From Microlunatus sagamiharensis (lineage in GTDB: Bacteria; Actinomycetota; Actinomycetes; Propionibacteriales; Propionibacteriaceae), in the NCBI RefSeq assembly GCF_900105785.1, contig NZ_LT629799.1, positions 2,976,001 through 3,040,000 of the forward strand: 64,000 nucleotides of DNA. Reading direction: 5' to 3'. The first letter of the stretch is position 1. Each line of letters starts with the position of its first letter. A program made the position numbers and the translations under genes. This document shows, piece by piece, positions 37,894-55,880 of this stretch. The notes beneath the pieces were generated by a model. That model did not search any database and was not told where the DNA came from. It saw nothing but the letters and a program-made list of their open reading frames with translations.

Positions 37894-39063
37894 GTGGAGC
37901 CGGTGCGGGTGGTGGTCGCCCCCGACAAGTTCAAGGGCTGCTTGCCCGCGGCCGGGGTCGCCGAGGCGCTGGCCGACGGGATCCGCTCCGTCCGCCCGGA
38001 CGTGGAGCTCCTGCTGCTGCCCGTCGCGGACGGCGGCGACGGAACCGTCACCGCGGCGCTCGCCGCCGGCTTCCGCGAGGTCGTGGTCACCATCGAGGGC
38101 CCGACGGGCGAGCCGGTGCGCGCGCCGTACGGGGTCCGCGGCGACCGGGCCGTGATCGAGCTGGCCGCGGCCTGCGGGCTCGACCTGCTGCCCGGCGGCC
38201 GGCCCGCGCCGCTGTCCGCCTCGACGTACGGGCTGGGCCAGGTGCTCCGGCACGCGCTCGAGCACGGCGTACACCACGTCGTCCTCGGCCTCGGCGGCAG
38301 CGCCTCGACCGACGGTGGCGCCGGGATGGTCCAGGCGCTGGGTGCTCGACTCCTCGACGGCGCCGGTCTCGAGCTCGGCCGGGGCGGCGCCGCACTCACC
38401 GACCTCGCGACCCTCGACCTCGACGACCTCGTGGCCCTCGAGGGCGTACGGGTCGTGGTCGCGAGCGACGTCGACCACCCGCTGCTCGGGACGTACGGGG
38501 CCGCAGCGGTCTTCGGGCCGCAGAAGGGCGCCGGACCCGACGAGGTGCGGCTCCTCGACGACGCGCTCACCCGCTGGGCCGACGTCGTCGCGGCGGCTAC
38601 CGGGCAGGACCGGCGCGACCTCCCCGGAGCCGGGGCCGCGGGCGGGACCGGGTTCGCCGCGCTCGCGCTGCTCGGGGCCTCCCTCCGCCCGGGGATCGAC
38701 CTGGTGCTCGAGCTCGTGGGGTTCGACGCCGCGGTGCGCGGTGCGTCGCTCGTCGTGACGGGTGAGGGTTCGGTGGACGCGCAGTCGCTGGCCGGCAAGG
38801 CGCCCGTCGGCGTCGCCGCGGCCGCCGCACGGGCCGGCGTCCCGACCGTCGCCGTCGCCGGCCGGAGCCTCCTCGCGCCCGGGCTCGCCGAGGCCGCGGG
38901 GATCGGCGCGGTCCACCCGCTCTCCGACCTGGAGGCCGACCCAGCACGCAGCATCGCGGACGCCGTCCCCCTGCTGCGCCGCGTGGGCGCGAGGATCGCC
39001 ACCCAGCACCTGGGCCCGAGGGCACCTGGACCGGAGCAGGCCATGAGCAAGGAGGAACGGTGA
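37894..39063 (+). CDS. glxK: Glycerate kinase
   Basis: 389 residues, GlxK/GarK family. VVVAPDKFKGCLPAAGVAEA, the PVADGGDGTVTAAL block, GGSASTDGGAGMVQALGARL and VVTGEGSVDAQSLAGKAPVG are diagnostic. It phosphorylates glycerate, giving 2-phosphoglycerate in the glyoxylate-salvage route that follows allantoin breakdown. Start GTG 37894 opens directly into the conserved N-terminus. The 3' end overlaps allB (GTGA), and the spacer to iclR holds the operator at 37794. The enzymes that would make glycerate from glyoxylate (Gcl, GlxR) are not in the window. Confidence 0.93.
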   Translation: MEPVRVVVAPDKFKGCLPAAGVAEALADGIRSVRPDVELLLLPVADGGDGTVTAALAAGFREVVVTIEGPTGEPVRAPYGVRGDRAVIELAAACGLDLLPGGRPAPLSASTYGLGQVLRHALEHGVHHVVLGLGGSASTDGGAGMVQALGARLLDGAGLELGRGGAALTDLATLDLDDLVALEGVRVVVASDVDHPLLGTYGAAAVFGPQKGAGPDEVRLLDDALTRWADVVAAATGQDRRDLPGAGAAGGTGFAALALLGASLRPGIDLVLELVGFDAAVRGASLVVTGEGSVDAQSLAGKAPVGVAAAAARAGVPTVAVAGRSLLAPGLAEAAGIGAVHPLSDLEADPARSIADAVPLLRRVGARIATQHLGPRAPGPEQAMSKEER

Positions 39064-40583
39064 CGGACGAGGACGGCCAGCAGGAGCCGGGAGCGGACGT
39101 CGACGACAGCCGTACCGTCGCCGACCGCGTCAACGACCCCGAGCGCATCCGCGGCCTGATCGCCGCGTACCGGCAGGAGCACGGCGTGCCGGACGACCGC
39201 GTTGCGGTGACCCGGCCCGCCCGCTCGCAGGGCTCGCCGGGCGGGCCCGAGCTGGACCTCGTGCTCCGCGGCCGGCGGGTGCTCACCACCGCGGGCGTCG
39301 TCGCCCGCGAGGTCGGGGTGCGCGACGGGACCGTCGTGGCCCTCGAGCCGCTCGGCGCGGGTCTCCAGGCCCGCCAGGTCGTGGAGCTGGCCGACGACGA
39401 GGTGCTGCTGCCCGGCCTCGTCGACACCCACGTCCACGTCAACGAGCCCGGGCGGACGAGCTGGGAGGGGTTCGCGTCGGCGACGCGCGCGGCCGCAGCG
39501 GGGGGCGTGACGACGCTGCTCGACATGCCGCTGAACTCGGTCCCGGCCACGGTCAACGCCCCCGCGCTGGAGTACAAGCGACTCTTCGCCGACGGGCAGG
39601 TGTTCGTCGACGTCGGCTTCTGGGGCGGAGCCGTGCCGGGCAACGCCCCGCACCTGCGCGCGCTGCACGACGACGGCGTCTTCGGCTTCAAGTGCTTCCT
39701 GCTGCACTCCGGCGTCGACGAGTTCCCGCACCTCGAGGCCGACGAGCTCGAGGCCGACCTCGCGGTGCTCAGGACCTTCGACTCGCTGATGATCGTGCAC
39801 GCCGAGGACTCGCGGGCGATCGACCGCGCGCCGCGCCCGGACGGTGCGGCGTACGCGTCGTTCCTCGCCTCACGCCCCCGCGGTGCGGAGAACCTCGCCA
39901 TCGCCGAGGTCATCGAGCGAGCCCGCTGGACCGGCGCCCGGGCGCACCTGCTGCACCTGTCGTCCTCCGACGCGCTGCCCATGATCGCCTCGGCCAAGCG
40001 TGACGGCGTCGACCTCACGGTGGAGACGTGCCCGCACTACCTGACGCTGCTCGCGGAGGAGATCCCCGACGGGGCCACGGCCTTCAAGTGCTGCCCGCCG
40101 GTGCGCGAGGCGAGCAACCGCGAGGCGCTGTGGGAGGGCCTGGTCGACGGGACGATCGACTTCATCGTGTCCGACCACTCCCCCTCGACCCTCGACCTCA
40201 AGGACCTCGAGAACGGTGACTTCGGCGTCGCCTGGGGCGGCATCTCCTCGCTCCAGCTCGGGCTGTCGCTGATCTGGACCGAGGCCCGCCGCCGCGGCAT
40301 CGGCCTCGAGCGCGTGGTCGAGTGGATGGCCACGCGACCCGCGCAGCGCGTCGGGCTCCGGTCCAAGGGGGCCCTCGCCCTCGGCTTCGACGCCGACCTG
40401 GCCGTCTTCGCCCCCGACGACGCCTTCGTCGTCGACGCCGGGCGCCTCCACCACCGCAACCCGATCACGCCCTACCAGGGCCGCGCGCTGTCGGGCCGCG
40501 TCCGCCGTACCTACCTCCGCGGCGAGCCCGTCGACCTCGAGGGCACGCCCACGGGCCGGCTCCTGCGCCGCGGCGAGGCCTGA
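39060..40583 (+). CDS. allB: Allantoinase
   Basis: 507 residues, cyclic amidohydrolase. It hydrolyses allantoin to allantoate. Zinc ligands appear in DTHVHVNEPG (His 124 and 126), the carbamylated lysine K211 in FKCFLLHSG, His in VHAEDS, HLLHLSS, and Asp in IVSDHSPSTL. About 65 residues (TDEDGQQEPGADVDDSRTVA ... VTRPARS) precede the usual start of the enzyme (DLVLRGRRVL). The GTG start at 39060 is supported by AGGAGG and the 4-bp overlap with glxK, so the extension is probably real. It is the second gene of the glxK-allB unit and ends before the family D repeat. Confidence 0.93.
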   Translation: MTDEDGQQEPGADVDDSRTVADRVNDPERIRGLIAAYRQEHGVPDDRVAVTRPARSQGSPGGPELDLVLRGRRVLTTAGVVAREVGVRDGTVVALEPLGAGLQARQVVELADDEVLLPGLVDTHVHVNEPGRTSWEGFASATRAAAAGGVTTLLDMPLNSVPATVNAPALEYKRLFADGQVFVDVGFWGGAVPGNAPHLRALHDDGVFGFKCFLLHSGVDEFPHLEADELEADLAVLRTFDSLMIVHAEDSRAIDRAPRPDGAAYASFLASRPRGAENLAIAEVIERARWTGARAHLLHLSSSDALPMIASAKRDGVDLTVETCPHYLTLLAEEIPDGATAFKCCPPVREASNREALWEGLVDGTIDFIVSDHSPSTLDLKDLENGDFGVAWGGISSLQLGLSLIWTEARRRGIGLERVVEWMATRPAQRVGLRSKGALALGFDADLAVFAPDDAFVVDAGRLHHRNPITPYQGRALSGRVRRTYLRGEPVDLEGTPTGRLLRRGEA

Positions 40584-40797: not shown

Positions 40798-42735
40798 TCA
40801 GGCGTCGGCGAGACCCCGCGTACGGGCGGTGTAGATCGGGTTCGCGTCGGCGACGAGGTCGTCGAAGCGGTGCCCGGCGATGTTCGCGATCTCGATCAGG
40901 GCGAGCGCGTGCTCCTGGGTCGGGGAGTTGTCCAGGCGGTGGCGGCCGTGCTCGAGGATCTGCTCGAACGAGGACCGGTCGCGCACGGAGATGATCAGCG
41001 GGAAGCCGAACCGCTCCTCGTACGCGTCGGCCAGCGCGGCGAGCTCTCCGTGCGCCTCGTCGTCGAGCCGGGTGAGCCCGAGCGCCGACTGGTCGCCGAA
41101 CGAGCCCGCGCCGGCCTCGCCGGAGGCGACCGCGTCCGAGCCCAGCTCGGGGTAGGCCGCGAAGAGCTCGCGCTGCTCGTCCTTGCTCGCCACCAGCAGC
41201 GCGTCCTGGAACGCCCGCCGCAGCTCACGGGTGTCGGCGTACGGGCGCTCGTCGTACGCGCGCTCGACCACCCAGCGCGGGCCCTGGAAGAGCCCGCCGA
41301 ACGTCTCGACGAACTCCTCGCGGCTCATCTGGTTCACGTCGTTGAGCCCGACCAGGCTGCGCCCCGGCACGCCGGCCACGGCGGCACCGCGGCTGCGGCC
41401 GACGTGGTGGAAGAGCAGGTTGAGCCCGATGGCCACGATGCTGCCGAGCGTGATGCCCGAGCCGAAGATGATCTGCGCCCACGACGGCACGGCCTTGGCC
41501 ACGTCGGGCTGCACGGTGACGAACACCGCCAGCCCGATCGCGGTGGAGACGATGACGACGTTGCGGTGGTCGTGGAAGTCGACCCGCGACAGCGTCTGGA
41601 TGCCGACGACGGCGACGGTCGCGAACATCGCCAGCGCGGCCCCGCCGAGCACCGGGTGCGGGATGCCGGCGACCAGCGCGCCGGCCTTGGGGATCAGGCC
41701 GAGCACGATCATGATCGCGCCGGCGGTGGCGACGACGTATCGGCTCTTGACCCGGGTCAGGCGCACGAGGCCGACGTTCTCGGCGAAGCAGGTGTAGGGG
41801 AACGAGTTGAAGACGCCGCCGATCGTCGTGGCGAGGCCGTCGGCCCGGAGCGCACGGGCGATGTCGTCGCGCTTGATCCGCTTCTCGACGATCTCGCCGG
41901 TGGCGAAGACGTCACCGGTCGTCTCGACGGCGGTGATCAGCATGACGACGATCATCGAGATGATCGCGGCGACCGAGAACTTCGGCCAGCCGAAGTAGAA
42001 CGGCGTGGTCAGCCCGACCCAGCTCGAGTCGGCGACGCCGCTGAAGCTCGCGTCGCCCAGCAGCCAGGCGACGAGCGTGCCCACGACCAGGCCGACCAAC
42101 ACAGCGACCGTAGCGAGGAAGCCGCGGAAGATGCGCTGGATCGCCACGATCAGCGCGAGGGTGCCGAGCGCGTACGCGAGGTACTTGGGGTTGGTCGGGT
42201 CCGACGTCGGCCCGGCCCCGCCGGTCGCGTCCCCTGCGGCGACGGGCAGCAGGGCGATGCCGATGATCAGGATCACCGAGCCGGTGACGACGGGCGGGAA
42301 GAACCTGATCAGGCGGCTGAAGTACGGCGCCATCAGGAAGGTGAAGATCCCGGCGACGATCACCGCGCCGTAGATCACCAGCAGGCCCTGGGTGCCGCCG
42401 CCGGCGGCGAGCGCGATGGCGATCATCGGCGACACGGCGGTGAAGGTCACGCCCTGGAGCAACGGCAGCCGGACCCCGACCTTCCAGAATCCGATCGACT
42501 GGACGATCGAGGCGATGCCGCAGGTGAACAGGTCGGCGTTGATCAGGTGGATCAGCTCGCGCTCCGACAGCCCGATGGCGCTGGCCAGGAGGATCGGGAC
42601 GACGACCGCGCCGGCGTAGAAGGCGAGGACGTGCTGGAAGCCGTAGACCGCCAGCTTGCCGGCGGGCAGCACCTCGTCGACGGGGTGCTTCGCGCGGCGC
42701 GCGGGTCGCTCGGGGAGAGCGGCAGTGGTGGCCAT
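40798..42735 (-). CDS. NCS2 xanthine/urate permease fused to an OHCU decarboxylase-like domain
   Basis: 645 residues. Residues 1 to about 450 are a nucleobase:cation symporter-2 permease with about 14 helices, the QHVLAFYAGAVVVPILLA helix-1 motif and VETTGDVFATGE in the late helices. From about 459 (RSLVGLNDVNQMSREEFVET) the soluble domain matches 2-oxo-4-hydroxy-4-carboxy-5-ureidoimidazoline decarboxylase, which converts OHCU to S-allantoin. The usual catalytic His of the HPxL motif is Tyr528 here (AAYPELG), and the usual Glu before Gln is Asp548 (GDQ); the distal Arg (AGHRFDDL) is kept. The decarboxylase may be altered or inactive. Start ATG 42735 has GGAAGGGG upstream. A perfect operator lies 29 bp further upstream. 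Confidence 0.88.
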   Translation of the reverse strand: MATTAALPERPARRAKHPVDEVLPAGKLAVYGFQHVLAFYAGAVVVPILLASAIGLSERELIHLINADLFTCGIASIVQSIGFWKVGVRLPLLQGVTFTAVSPMIAIALAAGGGTQGLLVIYGAVIVAGIFTFLMAPYFSRLIRFFPPVVTGSVILIIGIALLPVAAGDATGGAGPTSDPTNPKYLAYALGTLALIVAIQRIFRGFLATVAVLVGLVVGTLVAWLLGDASFSGVADSSWVGLTTPFYFGWPKFSVAAIISMIVVMLITAVETTGDVFATGEIVEKRIKRDDIARALRADGLATTIGGVFNSFPYTCFAENVGLVRLTRVKSRYVVATAGAIMIVLGLIPKAGALVAGIPHPVLGGAALAMFATVAVVGIQTLSRVDFHDHRNVVIVSTAIGLAVFVTVQPDVAKAVPSWAQIIFGSGITLGSIVAIGLNLLFHHVGRSRGAAVAGVPGRSLVGLNDVNQMSREEFVETFGGLFQGPRWVVERAYDERPYADTRELRRAFQDALLVASKDEQRELFAAYPELGSDAVASGEAGAGSFGDQSALGLTRLDDEAHGELAALADAYEERFGFPLIISVRDRSSFEQILEHGRHRLDNSPTQEHALALIEIANIAGHRFDDLVADANPIYTARTRGLADA

Positions 42736-43060: not shown

Positions 43061-44587
43061 ATGGCGGTGCCCACTGTCGACGCCCCCGCGGGCGTGCCCG
43101 ACGACGCGGCGTCCGAGGTGACCGTTGCGCCCTCGATCGTCGTGAACGGTCGCGAACGGCGCCTCGGCGAGGTGGGCGGGCACGTGACCCTGCTCGACTG
43201 GCTGCGCACCGAGGGGCTGACCGGCTCCAAGGAGGGCTGCGCCGAGGGCGAGTGCGGCGCCTGCGCCGTCATGGTGCTGCGGCCGGACTCCTCGATCGAC
43301 GGCGCCACCGGCCCGGGCGCGAGCACCTGGGTCTCGATCAACGCCTGTCTCGCCCCGGCCGCCGCGCTCGACGGCCAGGAGGTCCGGACCGCGGAGGGCC
43401 TCGGCCGGCCCGACGCCCTGCACCCCGTGCAGCGGGAGATGGCCGACCGGGGCGGCTCGCAGTGCGGCTACTGCACGCCCGGCTTCGTCTGCTCCATGGC
43501 CGCCGAGTACTACCGGGCCGGCCGCTCCCCCGTCGTCGACGGGCAGGAACCGGCGCACGAGCACGGCCCGAACGGTTTCGACCTCCACGCGCTCAGCGGC
43601 AACCTGTGCCGCTGCACGGGCTACCGCCCGATCCGCGACGCCGCGTACGCGCTCGGCGCCCCGGACGACGACGACGCGCTGCTGGCGCGCACCCGGACCG
43701 CGGCTCCCGCACCTCGTCCGACCCGGACCTCCAGCCCGCTGGGCTCGTTCGTCCGGCCGGCGTCGCTGGACGAGGCGCTGGCGCTGCTGGCCGCGGAGCC
43801 CGACGCGCGGCTGCTCGCCGGCTCGACGGACTGGGGCGTCGAGCTCAACCTGCGGCACAGCCGGACGCGCCTCACCGTCGCGCTCGACCGGCTGCCGGAG
43901 CTGCGGACGCTCGCCGAGACCGACGAGGCCTTCGAGATCGGGGCCTCGCTCACGCTGAGCGAGGTCGAGCGCGGGCTCGACGGACGAGTGCCGCTGCTGG
44001 CGGAGCTCTTCCCCCAGTTCGCGTCGCGGCTGATCCGCAACGCGGCCACGTTCGGCGGCAACCTCGGCACCGCGAGCCCGATCGGCGACAGCATGCCCGT
44101 GCTGCTCGCGCTCGACGCCCGGCTCGTGCTGGCCTCCGCCGCCGGCGAGCGCACCGTCGGCCTGGCCGACTACTTCACCGGCTACCGCGCTTCGGTCCGC
44201 CGACCCGACGAGCTCATCCGGACCGTCGTCGTGCCCAAGCCGCTTGCCCCGCTGGTCGGGTTCCACAAGATCGCCAAGCGACGGTTCGACGACATCTCGA
44301 GCGTGTCCGTGGCGTTCGCGCTGACGCTCGACGGCCCTTCGACAGGCTCAGGGAGCGTGGTCGCCCAGGCGCGCATCGGTCTCGGCGGCGTGGCCGCGAC
44401 GCCGGTCCGGGCGCTGATGGCCGAGCAGGCGCTCGTCGGGCGGCCGTTCACGGCCGAGGGCGTGGCCGAGGCGGCCGAGGCGCTCGGGAGTGAGGGCACG
44501 CCCCTCGACGACCACCGGGCGTCAGCCCGCTACCGGAGGGCGATGCTGCGCCAGAGCCTGCTCAAGCTGGTGGAGGAGTCCCGATGA
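43061..44587 (+). CDS. xdhA: Xanthine dehydrogenase small subunit (2Fe-2S and FAD domains)
   Basis: 508 residues. The N-terminal plant-type ferredoxin domain has GCAEGECGACAVMV. The second 2Fe-2S domain has SQCGYCTPGFVCSM and LSGNLCRCTGYRPI. An FAD-binding domain follows with LLAGSTDWGVELNLRH and RNAATFGGNLGTASPIGDSM. Electrons pass from the molybdenum site through these centres to FAD. ATG 43061 follows GGAG by about ten bases and overlaps no other gene. A dispersed repeat is inserted in frame at 44335-44353 as the peptide PSTGSG in the FAD domain's C-terminal part. It overlaps xdhB by 4 bp (ATGA). Confidence 0.95.
   Translation: MAVPTVDAPAGVPDDAASEVTVAPSIVVNGRERRLGEVGGHVTLLDWLRTEGLTGSKEGCAEGECGACAVMVLRPDSSIDGATGPGASTWVSINACLAPAAALDGQEVRTAEGLGRPDALHPVQREMADRGGSQCGYCTPGFVCSMAAEYYRAGRSPVVDGQEPAHEHGPNGFDLHALSGNLCRCTGYRPIRDAAYALGAPDDDDALLARTRTAAPAPRPTRTSSPLGSFVRPASLDEALALLAAEPDARLLAGSTDWGVELNLRHSRTRLTVALDRLPELRTLAETDEAFEIGASLTLSEVERGLDGRVPLLAELFPQFASRLIRNAATFGGNLGTASPIGDSMPVLLALDARLVLASAAGERTVGLADYFTGYRASVRRPDELIRTVVVPKPLAPLVGFHKIAKRRFDDISSVSVAFALTLDGPSTGSGSVVAQARIGLGGVAATPVRALMAEQALVGRPFTAEGVAEAAEALGSEGTPLDDHRASARYRRAMLRQSLLKLVEESR
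44335..44353 (+). repeat. Dispersed repeat inside xdhA
   Basis: CCCTTCGACAGGCTCAGGG is read in frame as PSTGSG between LTLDG and SVVAQARIG, the same reading frame used by the copy in mfd. Confidence 0.88.
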
Positions 44588-47043
44588 GCACCCTCGCCGA
44601 ACGTCCCGTCAACCCCAAGGTCGGGCTCGAGGTCTCGCACGAGAGCGCGCCGCTGCACGTCACCGGGGCCGCTCTCTACACCGACGACCTCGCCGTGCGG
44701 ATGAGCGGCGTCCTCACCGCGTGGCCGGTGCAGGCCCCGCACGCCCACGCGAGGATCACCCGCCTCGACGTCGAACCGGCGTACGCGGTCCCCGGCGTCG
44801 TGCGGGTGCTCACCGCCGCCGACGTCCCCGGGGTGAACGACGCCGGCGTCAAGCACGACGAGCCGCTCTTCGGTGACGAGGTCATGTTCTACGGCCACGC
44901 GGTCTGCTACGTCCTCGGCGAGTCCGACGAGGCGGCCCGGCGGGGTGCCGAGGCGGTCGTGGTCGCGTACGAGCCGCTGCCCTCCATCCTCACGCTGCAC
45001 GAGGCGATCGAGGCCGAGAGCTTCCAGGGCCACCAGCGCACCCTGTCGCGCGGCGACGCCGAGGCCGGGCTGGCGGGCGCCGCGCACCGCTTCTCCGGCG
45101 AGCTCGAGCTCGGCGGGCAGGAGCACTTCTACCTGGAGACGCACGCCGCGCTCGCGCACGTCGACGAGGGCGGGCAGGTCTTCGTGCAGTCGAGCACGCA
45201 GCACCCGAGCGAGACGCAGGAGATCGTCGCGCACGTGCTCGGCCTGGCCAGCCACGCGGTCACGGTCCAGTGCCTGCGGATGGGCGGCGGGTTCGGCGGC
45301 AAGGAGATGCAGCCGCACGGCTTCGCGGCGGTCGCCGCGCTCGGCGCGGTCCTCACCGGACGCCCGGTCCGCCTCCGCCTGAACCGCACCCAGGACCTGA
45401 CGATGTCGGGCAAGCGGCACCCCTTCCACGCGAGCTGGGAGGTCGGCTTCGACGCGGAGAACCGCCTGTGCGGGCTGCGCGCCACGCTGACCAGCGACGG
45501 CGGCTGGAGCCTCGACCTCTCCGAGCCGGTGCTCGCGCGGGCGCTGTGCCACGTCGACAACGCCTACTGGGTCCCCGACATCGAGGTCCTCGGGCGCGTC
45601 GCGAAGACGAACAAGACGTCGCAGACCGCGTTCCGCGGGTTCGGCGGGCCGCAGGGCATGATCGTCGTCGAGGACATCCTCGGGCGCTGCGCTCCCCTGC
45701 TCGGCGTCAGCGCCGAGGAGCTGCGTCGGACGAACCTCTACCTGCCCGGCCAGGCCACCCCGTACGGGCAGCCGGTCCGGCACGCCGAGCGGCTCCGGGA
45801 CATCTGGCAGATCCTGCTGGAGCGCTCGGACTTCGCTACACGGACGGCCGAGGTCGAGGCGTTCAACGCGGCGCACCTCCACACCAAGCGCGGGCTCGCG
45901 ATCACGCCGGTGAAGTTCGGGATCTCGTTCAACCTCACCGCCTTCAACCAGGCCGGCGCGCTCGTGCACGTCTACAAGGACGGCTCGGTGCTGATCAACC
46001 ACGGCGGCACCGAGATGGGCCAGGGCCTGCACACGAAGATGATCCAGGTCGCGGCGACCGCGCTCGGCGTCCCGCTGAGCCACGTCCGCCTCGCCCCGAC
46101 GCGCACGGACAAGGTCCCGAACACCTCCGCCACCGCGGCCAGCTCCGGCGCCGACCTCAACGGCGGCGCGATCCGCAACGCCTGCGAGCAGATCCGCGAG
46201 CGCCTGGCCGACGTGGCCGCGCGCCACCTGAACATCCACCCCAACGACGTGCGGTTCGTCGACGGCGTCGTCACCGGCATCGGCTTCCACGACCGCGAGA
46301 TCGCCTGGTCCGAGCTGACCCAGGCGGCCTACTTCCAGCGGGTGTCGCTGTGGGCCGCCGGCTTCTACCGGACCGAGGGCCTGCACTGGGACGCCGAGCG
46401 CATGCAGGGCGAGCCGTTCAAGTACTTCGCGTACGGGGCGTCGGTCAGCGAGGTCGAGGTCGACGGGTTCACCGGGACCTACCGGACGCGGCGCGTCGAC
46501 ATCGTCCACGACGTCGGCGACAGCCTGTCGCCGCTGATCGACGTCGGGCAGATCGAGGGCGGGTTCGTCCAGGGCGCCGGCTGGCTGACGCTGGAGGAGC
46601 TGCGCTGGGACACGACCGACGGCCCGCACCGCGGGCGGCTCTCGACGCAGTCGGCGAGCACGTACAAGCTGCCGAGCTTCTCCGAGATGCCCGAGGACTT
46701 CCGCGTGCACCTCTTCGAGCGCGCGACGGAGTCGGGCGTCGTCTACGGCTCCAAGGCCGTCGGCGAGCCGCCGCTGATGCTCGCCTTCTCCGTCCGCGAG
46801 GCGCTGCGCCAGGCGGCGGCCGCCTTCGGGCCCGGGGGCATGGAGGTCGACCTGGGGAGCCCGGCGACGCCCGAGGCCGTCTACTGGGCGGTCGAGGCGG
46901 CGCGGTCCGGCCGGGCCGAACCTGCCCTGGCGACCTCGGCCGCGAGCGAGGCGTACGCGGCCGGCGAGCACTCCGGCGCCGTCGCGACCGAGCACGCGGT
47001 CAGCGAGTCCGCCTCGACCTCTCCGTCCCTGGCGCAGGCATGA
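44584..47043 (+). CDS. xdhB: Xanthine dehydrogenase molybdopterin-binding subunit
   Basis: 819 residues. The molybdenum-cofactor domain carries MGGGFGGKEMQPHG, QTAFRGFGGPQGM, NHGGTEMGQGLHTKM and the active-site glutamate in KAVGEPPLMLAFSV. It oxidises hypoxanthine and xanthine to urate with water as oxygen donor. The length and domain order are those of bacterial XdhB. It is the second gene of xdhA-xdhB-xdhC-guaD, with 4-bp ATGA overlaps at both ends. Confidence 0.96.
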   Translation: MSTLAERPVNPKVGLEVSHESAPLHVTGAALYTDDLAVRMSGVLTAWPVQAPHAHARITRLDVEPAYAVPGVVRVLTAADVPGVNDAGVKHDEPLFGDEVMFYGHAVCYVLGESDEAARRGAEAVVVAYEPLPSILTLHEAIEAESFQGHQRTLSRGDAEAGLAGAAHRFSGELELGGQEHFYLETHAALAHVDEGGQVFVQSSTQHPSETQEIVAHVLGLASHAVTVQCLRMGGGFGGKEMQPHGFAAVAALGAVLTGRPVRLRLNRTQDLTMSGKRHPFHASWEVGFDAENRLCGLRATLTSDGGWSLDLSEPVLARALCHVDNAYWVPDIEVLGRVAKTNKTSQTAFRGFGGPQGMIVVEDILGRCAPLLGVSAEELRRTNLYLPGQATPYGQPVRHAERLRDIWQILLERSDFATRTAEVEAFNAAHLHTKRGLAITPVKFGISFNLTAFNQAGALVHVYKDGSVLINHGGTEMGQGLHTKMIQVAATALGVPLSHVRLAPTRTDKVPNTSATAASSGADLNGGAIRNACEQIRERLADVAARHLNIHPNDVRFVDGVVTGIGFHDREIAWSELTQAAYFQRVSLWAAGFYRTEGLHWDAERMQGEPFKYFAYGASVSEVEVDGFTGTYRTRRVDIVHDVGDSLSPLIDVGQIEGGFVQGAGWLTLEELRWDTTDGPHRGRLSTQSASTYKLPSFSEMPEDFRVHLFERATESGVVYGSKAVGEPPLMLAFSVREALRQAAAAFGPGGMEVDLGSPATPEAVYWAVEAARSGRAEPALATSAASEAYAAGEHSGAVATEHAVSESASTSPSLAQA

Positions 47044-53032: not shown

Positions 53033-53923
53033 TCAGCAGAAGCCGGCGATCCCCACCCAGGCCGCGTCCTTGGTGGGGGTGCCCTCGCGCTGGAAGGTCG
53101 CCTCGATGAGGCCGTACGGGCGGTCGGCGGCGTAGAAGACGACGCCGGGGTTGTCGAGCCCGAAGGGCGAGAGGTCGCTCAGGAAGTGGTGCTTGTTCGG
53201 GCACGAGAACTTGATCTCGTCGACCACGTCGTGCGCCTCGATCACGGCGGCGGCCATGTCGTGCAGGGTCTGCTGCAGCGCCTTCGAGTAGCCCTTGGTG
53301 AAGGTCTCCATGATCGTCGCCTTGATGCTGTCGTACGTCGCGTCGAAGTCGAGGCCCTCGACCGCGTCGGCGGCGTAGCGCCAGCGGGTGGAGACGTCGG
53401 TGGCGAGGATGCGGTCCTCGGTCTCGGGCAGCGTCGTGTAGCGGTCGCGGGGGTAGCCGACGAACCCCGACTGCGTCGTCTTCATGACCGTGAGGCCGTG
53501 GAACCCGGAGATCAGCGTCGTCGCGTCCCCGTCGCGCACCACCACGGCGGTCCGTGTCTCCGGCGCGCTGCGGTAGAAGGAGTGGTCGTGGTCGCCGATG
53601 CGCGACCAGCCGTACTCCTCCGCCGCCCAGCGCCCGCCGCTCACCCACGCGAACTCGGACGTGAAGTGGTCGGCCAGCGAGACCAGGAACTCCTCCGGCG
53701 AGCCGATGGGCTCACGCGCGAAGGCGAAGATCGTGTTCTTCTGCGTGTCCGTCGCGACGACGTGGGCGTTGTCGCCCTCGAGGAACGCCGCGTCGAAGTC
53801 GCCGCGCAGCTGCGAGGTGACGTTCAGGTCGACGAGGTCGTGCCGGTCGGTGTCCCGGGTGACGCGGACGACGCGGTTCTCGGCCTTGCCGTACTGGTTC
53901 GCAGCCAGCCTGATCGGGGTCAT
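53033..53923 (-). CDS. Factor-independent urate oxidase (uricase)
   Basis: 296 residues, tandem T-fold enzyme. It oxidises urate to 5-hydroxyisourate. QYGKAENRVVRVTRD (catalytic Lys), VVATDTQKNTIFAFAR (catalytic Thr and signature), the Phe/Arg urate-binding region DYRYTTLPETEDRILAT-like segment near 160, and NKHHFLSDLSPFGLDN (catalytic His) are present. The protein ends GIAGFC without a peroxisomal signal, as expected for bacteria. It is the last gene of the six-gene minus-strand operon, 61 bp after HIU hydrolase. Confidence 0.95.
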   Translation of the reverse strand: MTPIRLAANQYGKAENRVVRVTRDTDRHDLVDLNVTSQLRGDFDAAFLEGDNAHVVATDTQKNTIFAFAREPIGSPEEFLVSLADHFTSEFAWVSGGRWAAEEYGWSRIGDHDHSFYRSAPETRTAVVVRDGDATTLISGFHGLTVMKTTQSGFVGYPRDRYTTLPETEDRILATDVSTRWRYAADAVEGLDFDATYDSIKATIMETFTKGYSKALQQTLHDMAAAVIEAHDVVDEIKFSCPNKHHFLSDLSPFGLDNPGVVFYAADRPYGLIEATFQREGTPTKDAAWVGIAGFC

Positions 53924-53984: not shown

Positions 53985-54311
53985 TCAGCTGCCGCGGTAC
54001 GTGGTGTACGCGAACGGGCTGAGCAGCAGCGGCACGTGGTAGTGCGCCTGGCCGGCGACCACGCTGAAGACGACCGGAACGTACGGGTGGAAGCACGCGA
54101 CGCCCTGCGCGGCGAAGTGCTCGCCGGAGGCGAACCGCACCTCGTACGTCCCCGGCTCGAGCGTGTCCGGCCCGAGGTCGGGCACGCGGCCGTCGTCGTC
54201 CGTCACGGCCTCGGCGAGCACGGTGCCGGACGCGTCGGACAGCGTCACGCCGACCCCGGCCGCCGGCCGGCCGGCGCTCGCGTCGAGCACGTGCGCGGTG
54301 ACGAAGCTCAT
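53985..54311 (-). CDS. 5-hydroxyisourate hydrolase
   Basis: 108 residues of the transthyretin fold. It converts HIU to OHCU. The N-terminal His in TAHVLDASAG, the Arg in TYEVRFASGEHF, the His in AHYHVPLLLSPF and the invariant C-terminal YRGS are all present, as in enzymes rather than transthyretin. ATG 54311 follows AGGAGGGGGAGC. It lies 34 bp after the permease stop and before uricase, the step that makes its substrate. Confidence 0.95.
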   Translation of the reverse strand: MSFVTAHVLDASAGRPAAGVGVTLSDASGTVLAEAVTDDDGRVPDLGPDTLEPGTYEVRFASGEHFAAQGVACFHPYVPVVFSVVAGQAHYHVPLLLSPFAYTTYRGS

Positions 54312-54345
54312 CGCTCCCCCTCCTCTGGTCGGACGAGCACGCGGA

Positions 54346-55806
54346 TCACGGGTTGCCCGCCTGCTGCTTGCCGCGCGCCGTCGGACCCTCCGGGTCAAGC
54401 CTGGCCTCGTCCTCCCGGGAGATCGCAGCGGGGGCCGGCCCCTCGGCGAAGAGCGGCCCCTCGCTCGGCGCGGGATCGCGGCCGAGGATGTTGAAGACGA
54501 CGTTGAGGACCACGGCGGTCAGCGCGGCCGCGGTGATGCCCGAGTCGAAGATGACGGTGAACCACGACGGGAACTCGTCGTAGAAGGTCGGCACCGCGAT
54601 CGGGATGAGACCCATCCCGATCGAGAAGGCGACGATGACGATGTTCGCGTTGCCGGAGAAGTCGACGCGCGACAGCGTGCGGATGCCGCTCGCGGCGACC
54701 GTCCCGAACAGCGCCAGCCCGGCCCCGCCCAGCACCGGCAGCGGGACGAGCGCGACCAGGGCCCCGAGCACCGGGAAGAGGCCGAGGAAGACCAGGATCG
54801 CGCCGCTCACCGCGACGACGAAGCGGCTCTTGATGCCGGTGATGGCCACGAGCCCGACGTTCTGGGCGAAGGCGCTGAGCGAGAAGCCGTTGAAGACGCT
54901 GGCGAGCGCGGTCGCGCCCATGTCGGCGCGCAGCCCGTTCGTCACCGTCCGCCGGTCGGCGGGCTTGTCGACGACCTGGCCGATGGCCAGGATGTCGGCC
55001 GTCGTCTCGGTCATGATCACCAGCATCACGACGAGCATCGAGATCGTCGCGCCGACCGCGAAGATCGGCGTGCCGAAGTGGAAGGGCGTCGGCAGCTGGA
55101 AGATCCCGGCGTCGCCGATGCGGGAGAAGTCCGTCAGGCCGAACGGGACGGCGACGACCGTACCGAGGACGAGTCCCAGCAGGATCGCCACGCGACTGAA
55201 GAAGGGCGGCGCCAGGCGGTAGATCAGCACGATGATCACCACGGTCAGGAACGCGACCAGGATGTTCACCGGCGCCCCGAACGTCGGCGTCACCCCCGGC
55301 GTGCCGCCGCCGGCCCAGCGGATGGCCACGGGCAGCAGCGAGATGCCGATCACCGTGATGACGACCCCGGTGACGACCTCGGGGAAGAAGTGCAACAGCT
55401 GGGTGAACACGGGCGCGAGGAGGAAGGCGATCACCCCGGCGAGCAGCAGCGCACCGAAGATCGCCCGCAGCCCGTCGGTGCCGCCGCCCTGGGCCAGCCC
55501 GACCGCGAGCATCGTGGACACCGCGGCGAACGACGTGCCCTGGACGATCGGCTGCCGAGCGCCGATCTTCCACAGCCCGAGGGTCTGCAGGAGTGTCGCG
55601 ACGCCCGACATGAAGAGCCCCGCCGACACCAGGAAGGTGATGTCGGTCGGCGACAGCTTCAGCGCGGTGCCGACGATCAACGGCACGGCGACGACGCCGG
55701 CGTACATGCTCAGCACGTGCTGCAGCCCGTAGAGGAGCATCTGCGGCGCCGGCAGCACCGCGTCGACCGGGTGCCGTTCAGGAGCGGTCTGGGTCATGCT
55801 CGCCAT
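54346..55806 (-). CDS. NCS2 urate/xanthine permease
   Basis: About 486 residues, nucleobase:cation symporter-2 family with 14 predicted helices. QMLLYGLQHVLSMYAGVVAV is the helix-1 QH motif, and MTETTADILAIGQVVDKPAD lies in the late helices. It probably imports urate or xanthine by proton symport. Unlike the copy at 40798 it lacks a decarboxylase domain; its tail is short and charged (GREPAPSEGPLFAEGPAPAA-like). Start ATG 55806 has GAGAGG upstream; ATG 55797 is an alternative. It lies between the ureidoglycine aminohydrolase and HIU hydrolase genes of the operon. Confidence 0.92.
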   Translation of the reverse strand: MASMTQTAPERHPVDAVLPAPQMLLYGLQHVLSMYAGVVAVPLIVGTALKLSPTDITFLVSAGLFMSGVATLLQTLGLWKIGARQPIVQGTSFAAVSTMLAVGLAQGGGTDGLRAIFGALLLAGVIAFLLAPVFTQLLHFFPEVVTGVVITVIGISLLPVAIRWAGGGTPGVTPTFGAPVNILVAFLTVVIIVLIYRLAPPFFSRVAILLGLVLGTVVAVPFGLTDFSRIGDAGIFQLPTPFHFGTPIFAVGATISMLVVMLVIMTETTADILAIGQVVDKPADRRTVTNGLRADMGATALASVFNGFSLSAFAQNVGLVAITGIKSRFVVAVSGAILVFLGLFPVLGALVALVPLPVLGGAGLALFGTVAASGIRTLSRVDFSGNANIVIVAFSIGMGLIPIAVPTFYDEFPSWFTVIFDSGITAAALTAVVLNVVFNILGRDPAPSEGPLFAEGPAPAAISREDEARLDPEGPTARGKQQAGNP

Positions 55807-55880
55807 CGTGCTGACCTCTCGTGACAGGCGGGTGTCGGTGCTGTCGCGGTCCGTGGGCGCCACCTCTCGGGCGCCCGGCC

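Follow-up and report, generated by a model that had tools for sequence, protein, structure and literature searches.

We propose that the C-terminal tail of a fused permease encoded by Microlunatus sagamiharensis is probably a pseudoenzyme accessory domain, one that modulates an SLC23/NCS2 nucleobase:cation symporter and does not decarboxylate OHCU. The domain is best explained as a descendant of a UHCUDC-type OHCU decarboxylase, and we infer for it a regulatory role in which a ligand is bound and the transporter modulated. The gene lies in the window (the whole stretch of DNA that was analysed, 64,000 nucleotides of contig NZ_LT629799.1) and is a single open frame with an ATG start, read on the minus strand from 42735 to 40798. 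Its parts are as follows.

40798 to 42735, minus strand: fused gene, NCS2 (SLC23) permease with a C-terminal OHCU-decarboxylase-like domain, 645 aa
41503 to 42657, minus strand: Xan_ur_permease domain, residues 27-411, UraA/UapA fold in the model
40864 to 41334, minus strand: OHCU_decarbox-fold domain, residues 468-624, predicted pseudoenzyme, from Pfam and AlphaFold
40834 to 40854, minus strand: VADANPI tail motif, from aligned fused proteins

In Pfam, the permease part scored 357.1 bits (Xan_ur_permease, residues 27-411) and the tail 137.8 bits against a cut-off of 24 (OHCU_decarbox, PF09349, residues 468-624), and among the NCBIfam models the permease reached 521.8 bits with pbuX (TIGR03173; cut-off 414.15), also passing PF00860, and the tail 108.3 bits with UHCUDC (TIGR03164; cut-off 96.25). 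The permease profile and the UraA fold make the protein a member of NCS2/SLC23, and scores above the curated cut-offs make its tail a member of the PF09349/TIGR03164 sequence family. The full-length AlphaFold model (mean pLDDT 81.2, pTM 0.65, 29 aligned sequences) falls below a pLDDT of 50 at residues 446-450 and 456-459, which link permease and tail; its membrane part matched UraA and UapA and its tail zebrafish OHCU decarboxylase. Modeled in isolation (pLDDT 82.6, pTM 0.79), the domain had the zebrafish structure 2o70 as its best PDB match, with TM 0.85/0.91 and an rmsd of 1.4. The fusion and its coordinates, as originally predicted, were thus confirmed by the open frame, Pfam, NCBIfam, and AlphaFold. 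The pbuX match was taken as a subfamily label from which no substrate of the fused permease is read. A substrate prediction from the TM10 motif gave nothing firm; in a pattern search of fused frames, the residue before N.G....T was E in 87/105 and Q in 13/105.

Three codons mark the catalytic positions.

41152 to 41154, minus strand: Tyr528 codon, at the position of the catalytic His (zebrafish His67), from phmmer alignments
41092 to 41094, minus strand: Asp548 codon, at the position of the catalytic Glu (zebrafish Glu87), from phmmer alignments
40867 to 40869, minus strand: Arg623 codon, distal Arg kept (zebrafish Arg161), from the alignment

The three zebrafish sites, numbered H67, E87, and R161 in the 2o70 chain, are those that we take to be the catalytic residues of OHCU decarboxylase. 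In phmmer alignments with the solved enzymes from zebrafish (2o70) and Agrobacterium (2o8i), Tyr528 falls opposite the HPDL His and Asp548 opposite the Glu of the EQ pair, so that the substitution of Tyr for His and Asp for Glu, and the retention of the Arg, all hold as they had been read by eye. Of the features expected of the enzyme, the window protein therefore has neither the catalytic His of HPxL nor the catalytic Glu before Gln, and keeps the distal Arg as Arg623. An alignment slip masking an intact His/Glu pair was considered and rejected, as phmmer and family alignments agree and the fold match spans the domain; alignment with stand-alone and fused relatives likewise produced no shift to an intact pair.

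These changes had been read as a peculiarity of one protein, a reading that did not stand, as the whole sampled fused clade shares them. Among 105 distinct permease-fused domains, which, being related to one another, do not represent 105 independent events, the His position holds 75 Tyr, 30 Phe, and no His, and the Glu position 89 Asp, 15 Glu, and one Ala (an acid in 104/105), with Arg in 105/105. Glu-Gln is retained in only two of the 105, and Glu is kept only alongside Tyr or Phe at the His position, while HP/EQ/R occurs in 153 of 163 non-permease domains. The fused sample covers Actinomycetes plus two families of other classes (codes f58 and f60), and the proteins fetched from those two families also have Tyr at the His position. 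The VADANPI tail is found in most aligned Actinomycetes fused proteins (L004 and L105 excepted) and is absent in the aligned f58 and f60 ones. No fused homologue of proven activity was found.

Searches with PF09349 matched 11 of 20 genomes in the genus, 31 of 197 in the family, and 188 of 394 in the class; these were unbiased for fusion, and as loci were taken from part of the matches, at most 30 per search and in the class search from an abridged match list, a permease fusion with an intact His could still exist elsewhere. Across the phylum (396 genomes), a profile of the fused domains matched 58, many of these being stand-alones. The larger share of the fused domains (72/105) was obtained from named loci, the 80 best among 196 relatives, belonging to Microlunatus flavus, Pedococcus, Phycicoccus, Kribbella, Nocardioides, Geodermatophilus, Pseudonocardia, Flexivirga, Williamsia, Gordonia, Rhodococcus, Mycolicibacterium, and others. 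These loci were found by fused-type peptide patterns (RFD[DAK]LVADA and a stretch whose last residues are G[FLM]PL) that lie outside the His/Glu motif and therefore did not select for Tyr or Phe. Twenty further regions from the class search (two overlapping; mostly chosen for long open frames) held no permease-fused domain. The domain set leaves out lengths below 120 or above 230 residues and duplicate sequences.

In a tree of 138 rows (68/105 fused and 70/163 others; a quick search without bootstrap) built without the four motif columns, a single branch splits the fused domains from all others (SH-aLRT 95; none of 500 shuffles gave as low a value), and five changes in all account for the residues found at the His position; the tree omits nine divergent non-permease rows, and a long-branch warning applies to L180 and L230. 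The ten exceptions among the 163 non-permease domains indicate that UraD-like proteins lost these residues on other occasions too; they include motif-less paralogues from group f20 and one f5 protein with Tyr-Pro/Glu-Gln, and one of them, L195, looks like a frame artefact. Four stand-alone UraD paralogues in f20 (L189, L191, L192, and L193), which lack the HP...EQ segment or have other sequence in its place, are possibly pseudoenzymes too, and two non-fused UraD-like proteins in f5 (L180 and L190) have YP/EQ or a deleted segment. Within the genus of the window, short UraD-like genes at L012 and L013 (genomes G004 and G012) have HS/HA for HP and have lost the Glu region.

The genome holds two PF09349 matches, the fused domain and a stand-alone protein at C1:3899145-3899591, 0.88 Mb from the fused gene and outside the window. 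The latter is a UraD of 189 aa (165.9 bits with NCBIfam UraD_2; cut-off 139.4) with an intact HPRIG...SRAEQ and with His, Glu, and Arg all kept. The original prediction had noted that the island contains no other decarboxylase, which is correct within the window, and had offered a true decarboxylase elsewhere as one solution, which the genome search supports through this second, intact copy. To judge by its conserved motifs, the stand-alone UraD is the best candidate for OHCU decarboxylation in this organism. Around the fused gene, the window encodes a purine island with the following members, as well as guanine deaminase and ureidoglycine aminohydrolase.

39060 to 40583, plus strand: allantoinase, convergent neighbour (TIGR03178, 551.5 bits; cut-off 357.85)
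44584 to 47043, plus strand: xanthine dehydrogenase molybdopterin subunit (TIGR02965, 958.2 bits; cut-off 849.5)
53033 to 53923, minus strand: urate oxidase
53985 to 54314, minus strand: 5-hydroxyisourate hydrolase
54346 to 55830, minus strand: second PbuX-type NCS2 permease, without the extra domain

PbuX-type permeases occur twice in this purine island, and of the two just the fused one bears the extra domain; the other is 49% identical to it over the matched part. Of 296 genomes sampled in the class, 47 matched at E<=1e-60; among the 30 loci read, the five fetched permeases with the domain were 64-100% identical to the window protein, and the nearest fetched ones without it were 58-60% identical and had short tails. 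We also observed a repeat, CCTGAGCCTGTCGAAGG, with 11 copies in the window on both strands at up to 2 mismatches (0.04 expected), at 107, 1446, 15237, 15258, 19632, 34213, 34270, 34336, 44336, 47921, and 47987; the copy at 44336 falls within the frame upstream of xdhB.

In 53 of the 80 named loci, the fused gene is followed immediately, and on its own strand, by an intact UraD gene that ends within 1.1 kb of it; in 33, uricase and HIU hydrolase also follow within 3.5 kb. Anywhere on the fetched DNA, an intact UraD is present in 62 of the 80; the remaining 18 have none on the fetched stretch, which is the part of those genomes that was covered. As a separate observation, L231 (4951-6906) and L232 (4921-6864) each hold, adjoining a fused permease, an open frame some 650 aa long in which a long N-terminal part without a permease match precedes an intact UraD domain (HPELA...REQ).

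The fused protein also persists where the pathway is not detected. It occurs in 17 of 197 genomes of the window's family, and 13 of these (G030, G040, G061, G068, G077, G083, G088, G091, G096, G099, G130, G137, and G187) gave no other PF09349 match in the profile search, no uricase (PF01014), HIU hydrolase (PF00576), or PuuD (PF06181), and no relative of the island XdhB at E<=1e-20. Twelve of the 13 are 99-100% complete and G137 is 73% complete; the absence calls cover PF01014-type uricase, flavin-dependent urate oxidases lying outside the scope of the search. As controls, uricase and HIU hydrolase were found in G000, G005, and G014, and XdhB in G000 and G005; the XdhB query proves little because G014 has no XdhB match although it has uricase, and in the PF06181 search only the control genome, Caulobacter, matched. 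Eight neighbourhoods of 19-20 kb from the 13 genomes contained no relatives of uricase, HIU hydrolase, allantoinase, or XdhB, and five of them, inspected by eye with a simple gene call, showed no recognisable purine genes.

G014, from the same genus, encodes uricase and HIU hydrolase, and its sole PF09349 match is the fused protein, which is closer to those of f60 than to those of its own genus; the assembly is 90% complete in 610 contigs. Residual decarboxylase activity of the fused protein in this genome may exist. OHCU also decays spontaneously, with a half-life of 9.6 min according to PMC4562309. G179, the remaining fused genome, encodes a stand-alone UraD as well as HIU hydrolase but gave no uricase match. 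G182 has a PF09349 match and is not counted as a fused genome, since that match, in L158, is not fused to a permease. The L158 protein (L158:2795-4615) is a 607-aa frame with an OHCU-decarboxylase-like end (FN/EE) that is not a permease, and a stand-alone UraD lies on the same contig.

The domain is under purifying selection. Its dN/dS (Nei-Gojobori) was 0.03-0.27 in eight of ten pairs, and constraint is weaker in genus g27, where two pairs gave 0.52; across all ten pairs these values were 0.7 to 2 times those of the permease part (0.02-0.33). Six of the pairs came from genomes without the pathway, with 0.09-0.27 in four and 0.52 in two. Nine domain positions are invariant across the 105 fused sequences. 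Among them R506 is kept in 105/105, the commonest residue there in stand-alone proteins being Leu (69/163), F475 and F479 are likewise invariant in the fused set only, and L524 and P579 are nearly so. Fused-specific invariants such as R506 suggest a new constraint. The old motif has drifted in the fused set, with entropies of 1.26 bits at Pro529, 2.28 at Ser545, and 1.78 at Gln549. Loss of the catalytic residues with conservation of the fold under selection is the pattern of a pseudoenzyme domain.

OHCU decarboxylation is unlikely to be the job of the fused domain because the His is absent from every member collected, Phe stands at that position in 30/105, an intact enzyme exists beside it or elsewhere, and the domain persists without a detected supply of substrate. 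An active enzyme with a modified mechanism, in which Tyr and Asp replace His and Glu and OHCU is still decarboxylated, had been one option of the original prediction, and it would be in keeping with the acid in 104/105, the Arg in 105/105, and the genome G014, where uricase and HIU hydrolase occur with no other PF09349 match. The Phe variants, however, together with an authentic UraD encoded by the same genome or operon and the persistence of the domain where urate oxidation is undetected (13 genomes without detected uricase, HIU hydrolase, or other UraD), disfavour that option and leave it improbable. A different reaction, catalysed by the domain on the transported nucleobase or a derivative, could use the conserved acid and Arg of a pocket under purifying selection, yet Pro529, Ser545, and Gln549 have drifted across the fused domains and the neighbourhoods inspected have no pathway common to all, so we rate its chances as similarly slim. 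Still harder to credit is a functionless, degenerating remnant of fusion: the catalytic residues are lost and dN/dS reaches 0.52 in two g27 pairs, but the other 8/10 pairs lie at 0.03-0.27, nine positions are invariant in 105 fused sequences, and the frames are intact.

A fourth alternative, likelier than these three but still one that we consider unlikely, is a metabolon tether: the pseudo-UraD domain would serve as a dock for the genuine UraD and anchor the urate-degrading enzymes to the permease, allowing purine to be processed at the membrane as it enters. Such docking would fit the loci with UraD directly downstream (53/80) and those with uricase and HIU hydrolase within 3.5 kb (33), and the OHCU decarboxylase domain is reported to associate as a dimer in the crystal, although the authors of that work (PMC2834698) doubt such pairing within the full plant fusion protein. 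In the window genome, however, UraD is 0.88 Mb distant, and the domain is retained in 13 genomes where no other UraD, uricase, or HIU hydrolase was detected; the tether model accounts for the operons and not for these 13 genomes.

The kept acid, Arg, and fold, together with the new invariants, therefore favour a non-catalytic ligand-binding or dimer-coupling module. By analogy, such a module would most likely regulate the transporter, by sensing purines or ureides or by coupling dimers, from a position like that of STAS in SLC26; the earlier suggestion that the domain senses or channels intermediates is compatible with this and is the direction we prefer. From the known topology of SLC23 proteins, the tail presumably lies in the cytoplasm. 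The retained pocket, with its acid, its Arg, and an aromatic residue in place of His, would bind a purine or ureide without turnover, and ligand-dependent contacts or pairing of the cytoplasmic domains could tune the elevator movement, comparable to the influence of the C-terminal STAS domain on SLC26, which has the same membrane fold. OHCU decarboxylase has been crystallised with (S)-allantoin present (2q37 title), and PMC2834698 reports crystal dimers of the plant domain whose interface lies apart from the allantoin site. The kept acid and Arg would also suit weakened or different catalysis, and adjacency to UraD, HIUase, and Uox fits a docking role as well. More tentatively, and with less than even confidence, we envisage a large Actinomycetota subfamily of SLC23/NCS2 elevator transporters allosterically gated by a C-terminal pseudoenzyme, its purine/ureide sensor having been made from what was the substrate pocket of a urate-pathway enzyme; this would provide direct metabolite feedback on nucleobase uptake and would have been reused in lineages without purine oxidation.

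No account of a permease-OHCU fusion was found in the open-licence PMC literature, outside which subscription papers mostly fall, and the fusion is not described in the available sections of PMC4562309, PMC3646786, PMC2834698, PMC6497670, PMC4016543, and PMC4991794. In Rubrobacter xylanophilus, a 'uracil/xanthine permease' gene stands directly before the OHCU decarboxylase gene, with no comment on a fused domain in that passage of PMC4016543. The component families and the domain architecture are known and computable from public profiles; the clade-wide disarming and the survival without the pathway appear to be undescribed in the open-licence PMC literature. A widespread, conserved, and disarmed enzyme domain on SLC23 transporters makes directly testable the question of whether a cytoplasmic ligand-binding domain can gate nucleobase uptake. 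There is also an annotation hazard: since the fused protein passes the UHCUDC cut-off, automated pipelines can assign an OHCU decarboxylase to genomes in which it is absent, including the 13 without a detected urate oxidation pathway.

Compared to known systems, the domain resembles OHCU decarboxylase (UraD) in fold, sequence family, and the kept acid and Arg, and differs in having Tyr or Phe for His and mostly Asp for Glu, in being fused to a transporter, and in being kept in genomes without the detected pathway. With the NCS2/SLC23 permeases PbuX, UraA, and UapA the protein shares TIGR03173, PF00860, and the model fold, to which it adds a conserved C-terminal soluble domain; SLC23 proteins are without carboxy-terminal domains according to PMC6497670. 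The same paper describes SLC26 as an SLC23-like architecture plus a regulatory STAS domain that is not a prerequisite for dimerisation. The 7+7 TM architecture with a C-terminal cytoplasmic domain is thus common to SLC26/SulP and the fused protein, whereas the domain here is all-helical in the model and of enzyme-family descent, so that the likeness is one of analogy, not homology; if our reading is true, the fused permeases would be the SLC23 counterpart of SLC26-STAS. Other fusions and long frames containing UraD, with uricase, HIU hydrolase, or other partners, use the same domain, and those fetched keep HP/EQ, the stand-alone exceptions noted above aside, which the permease fusions never do.
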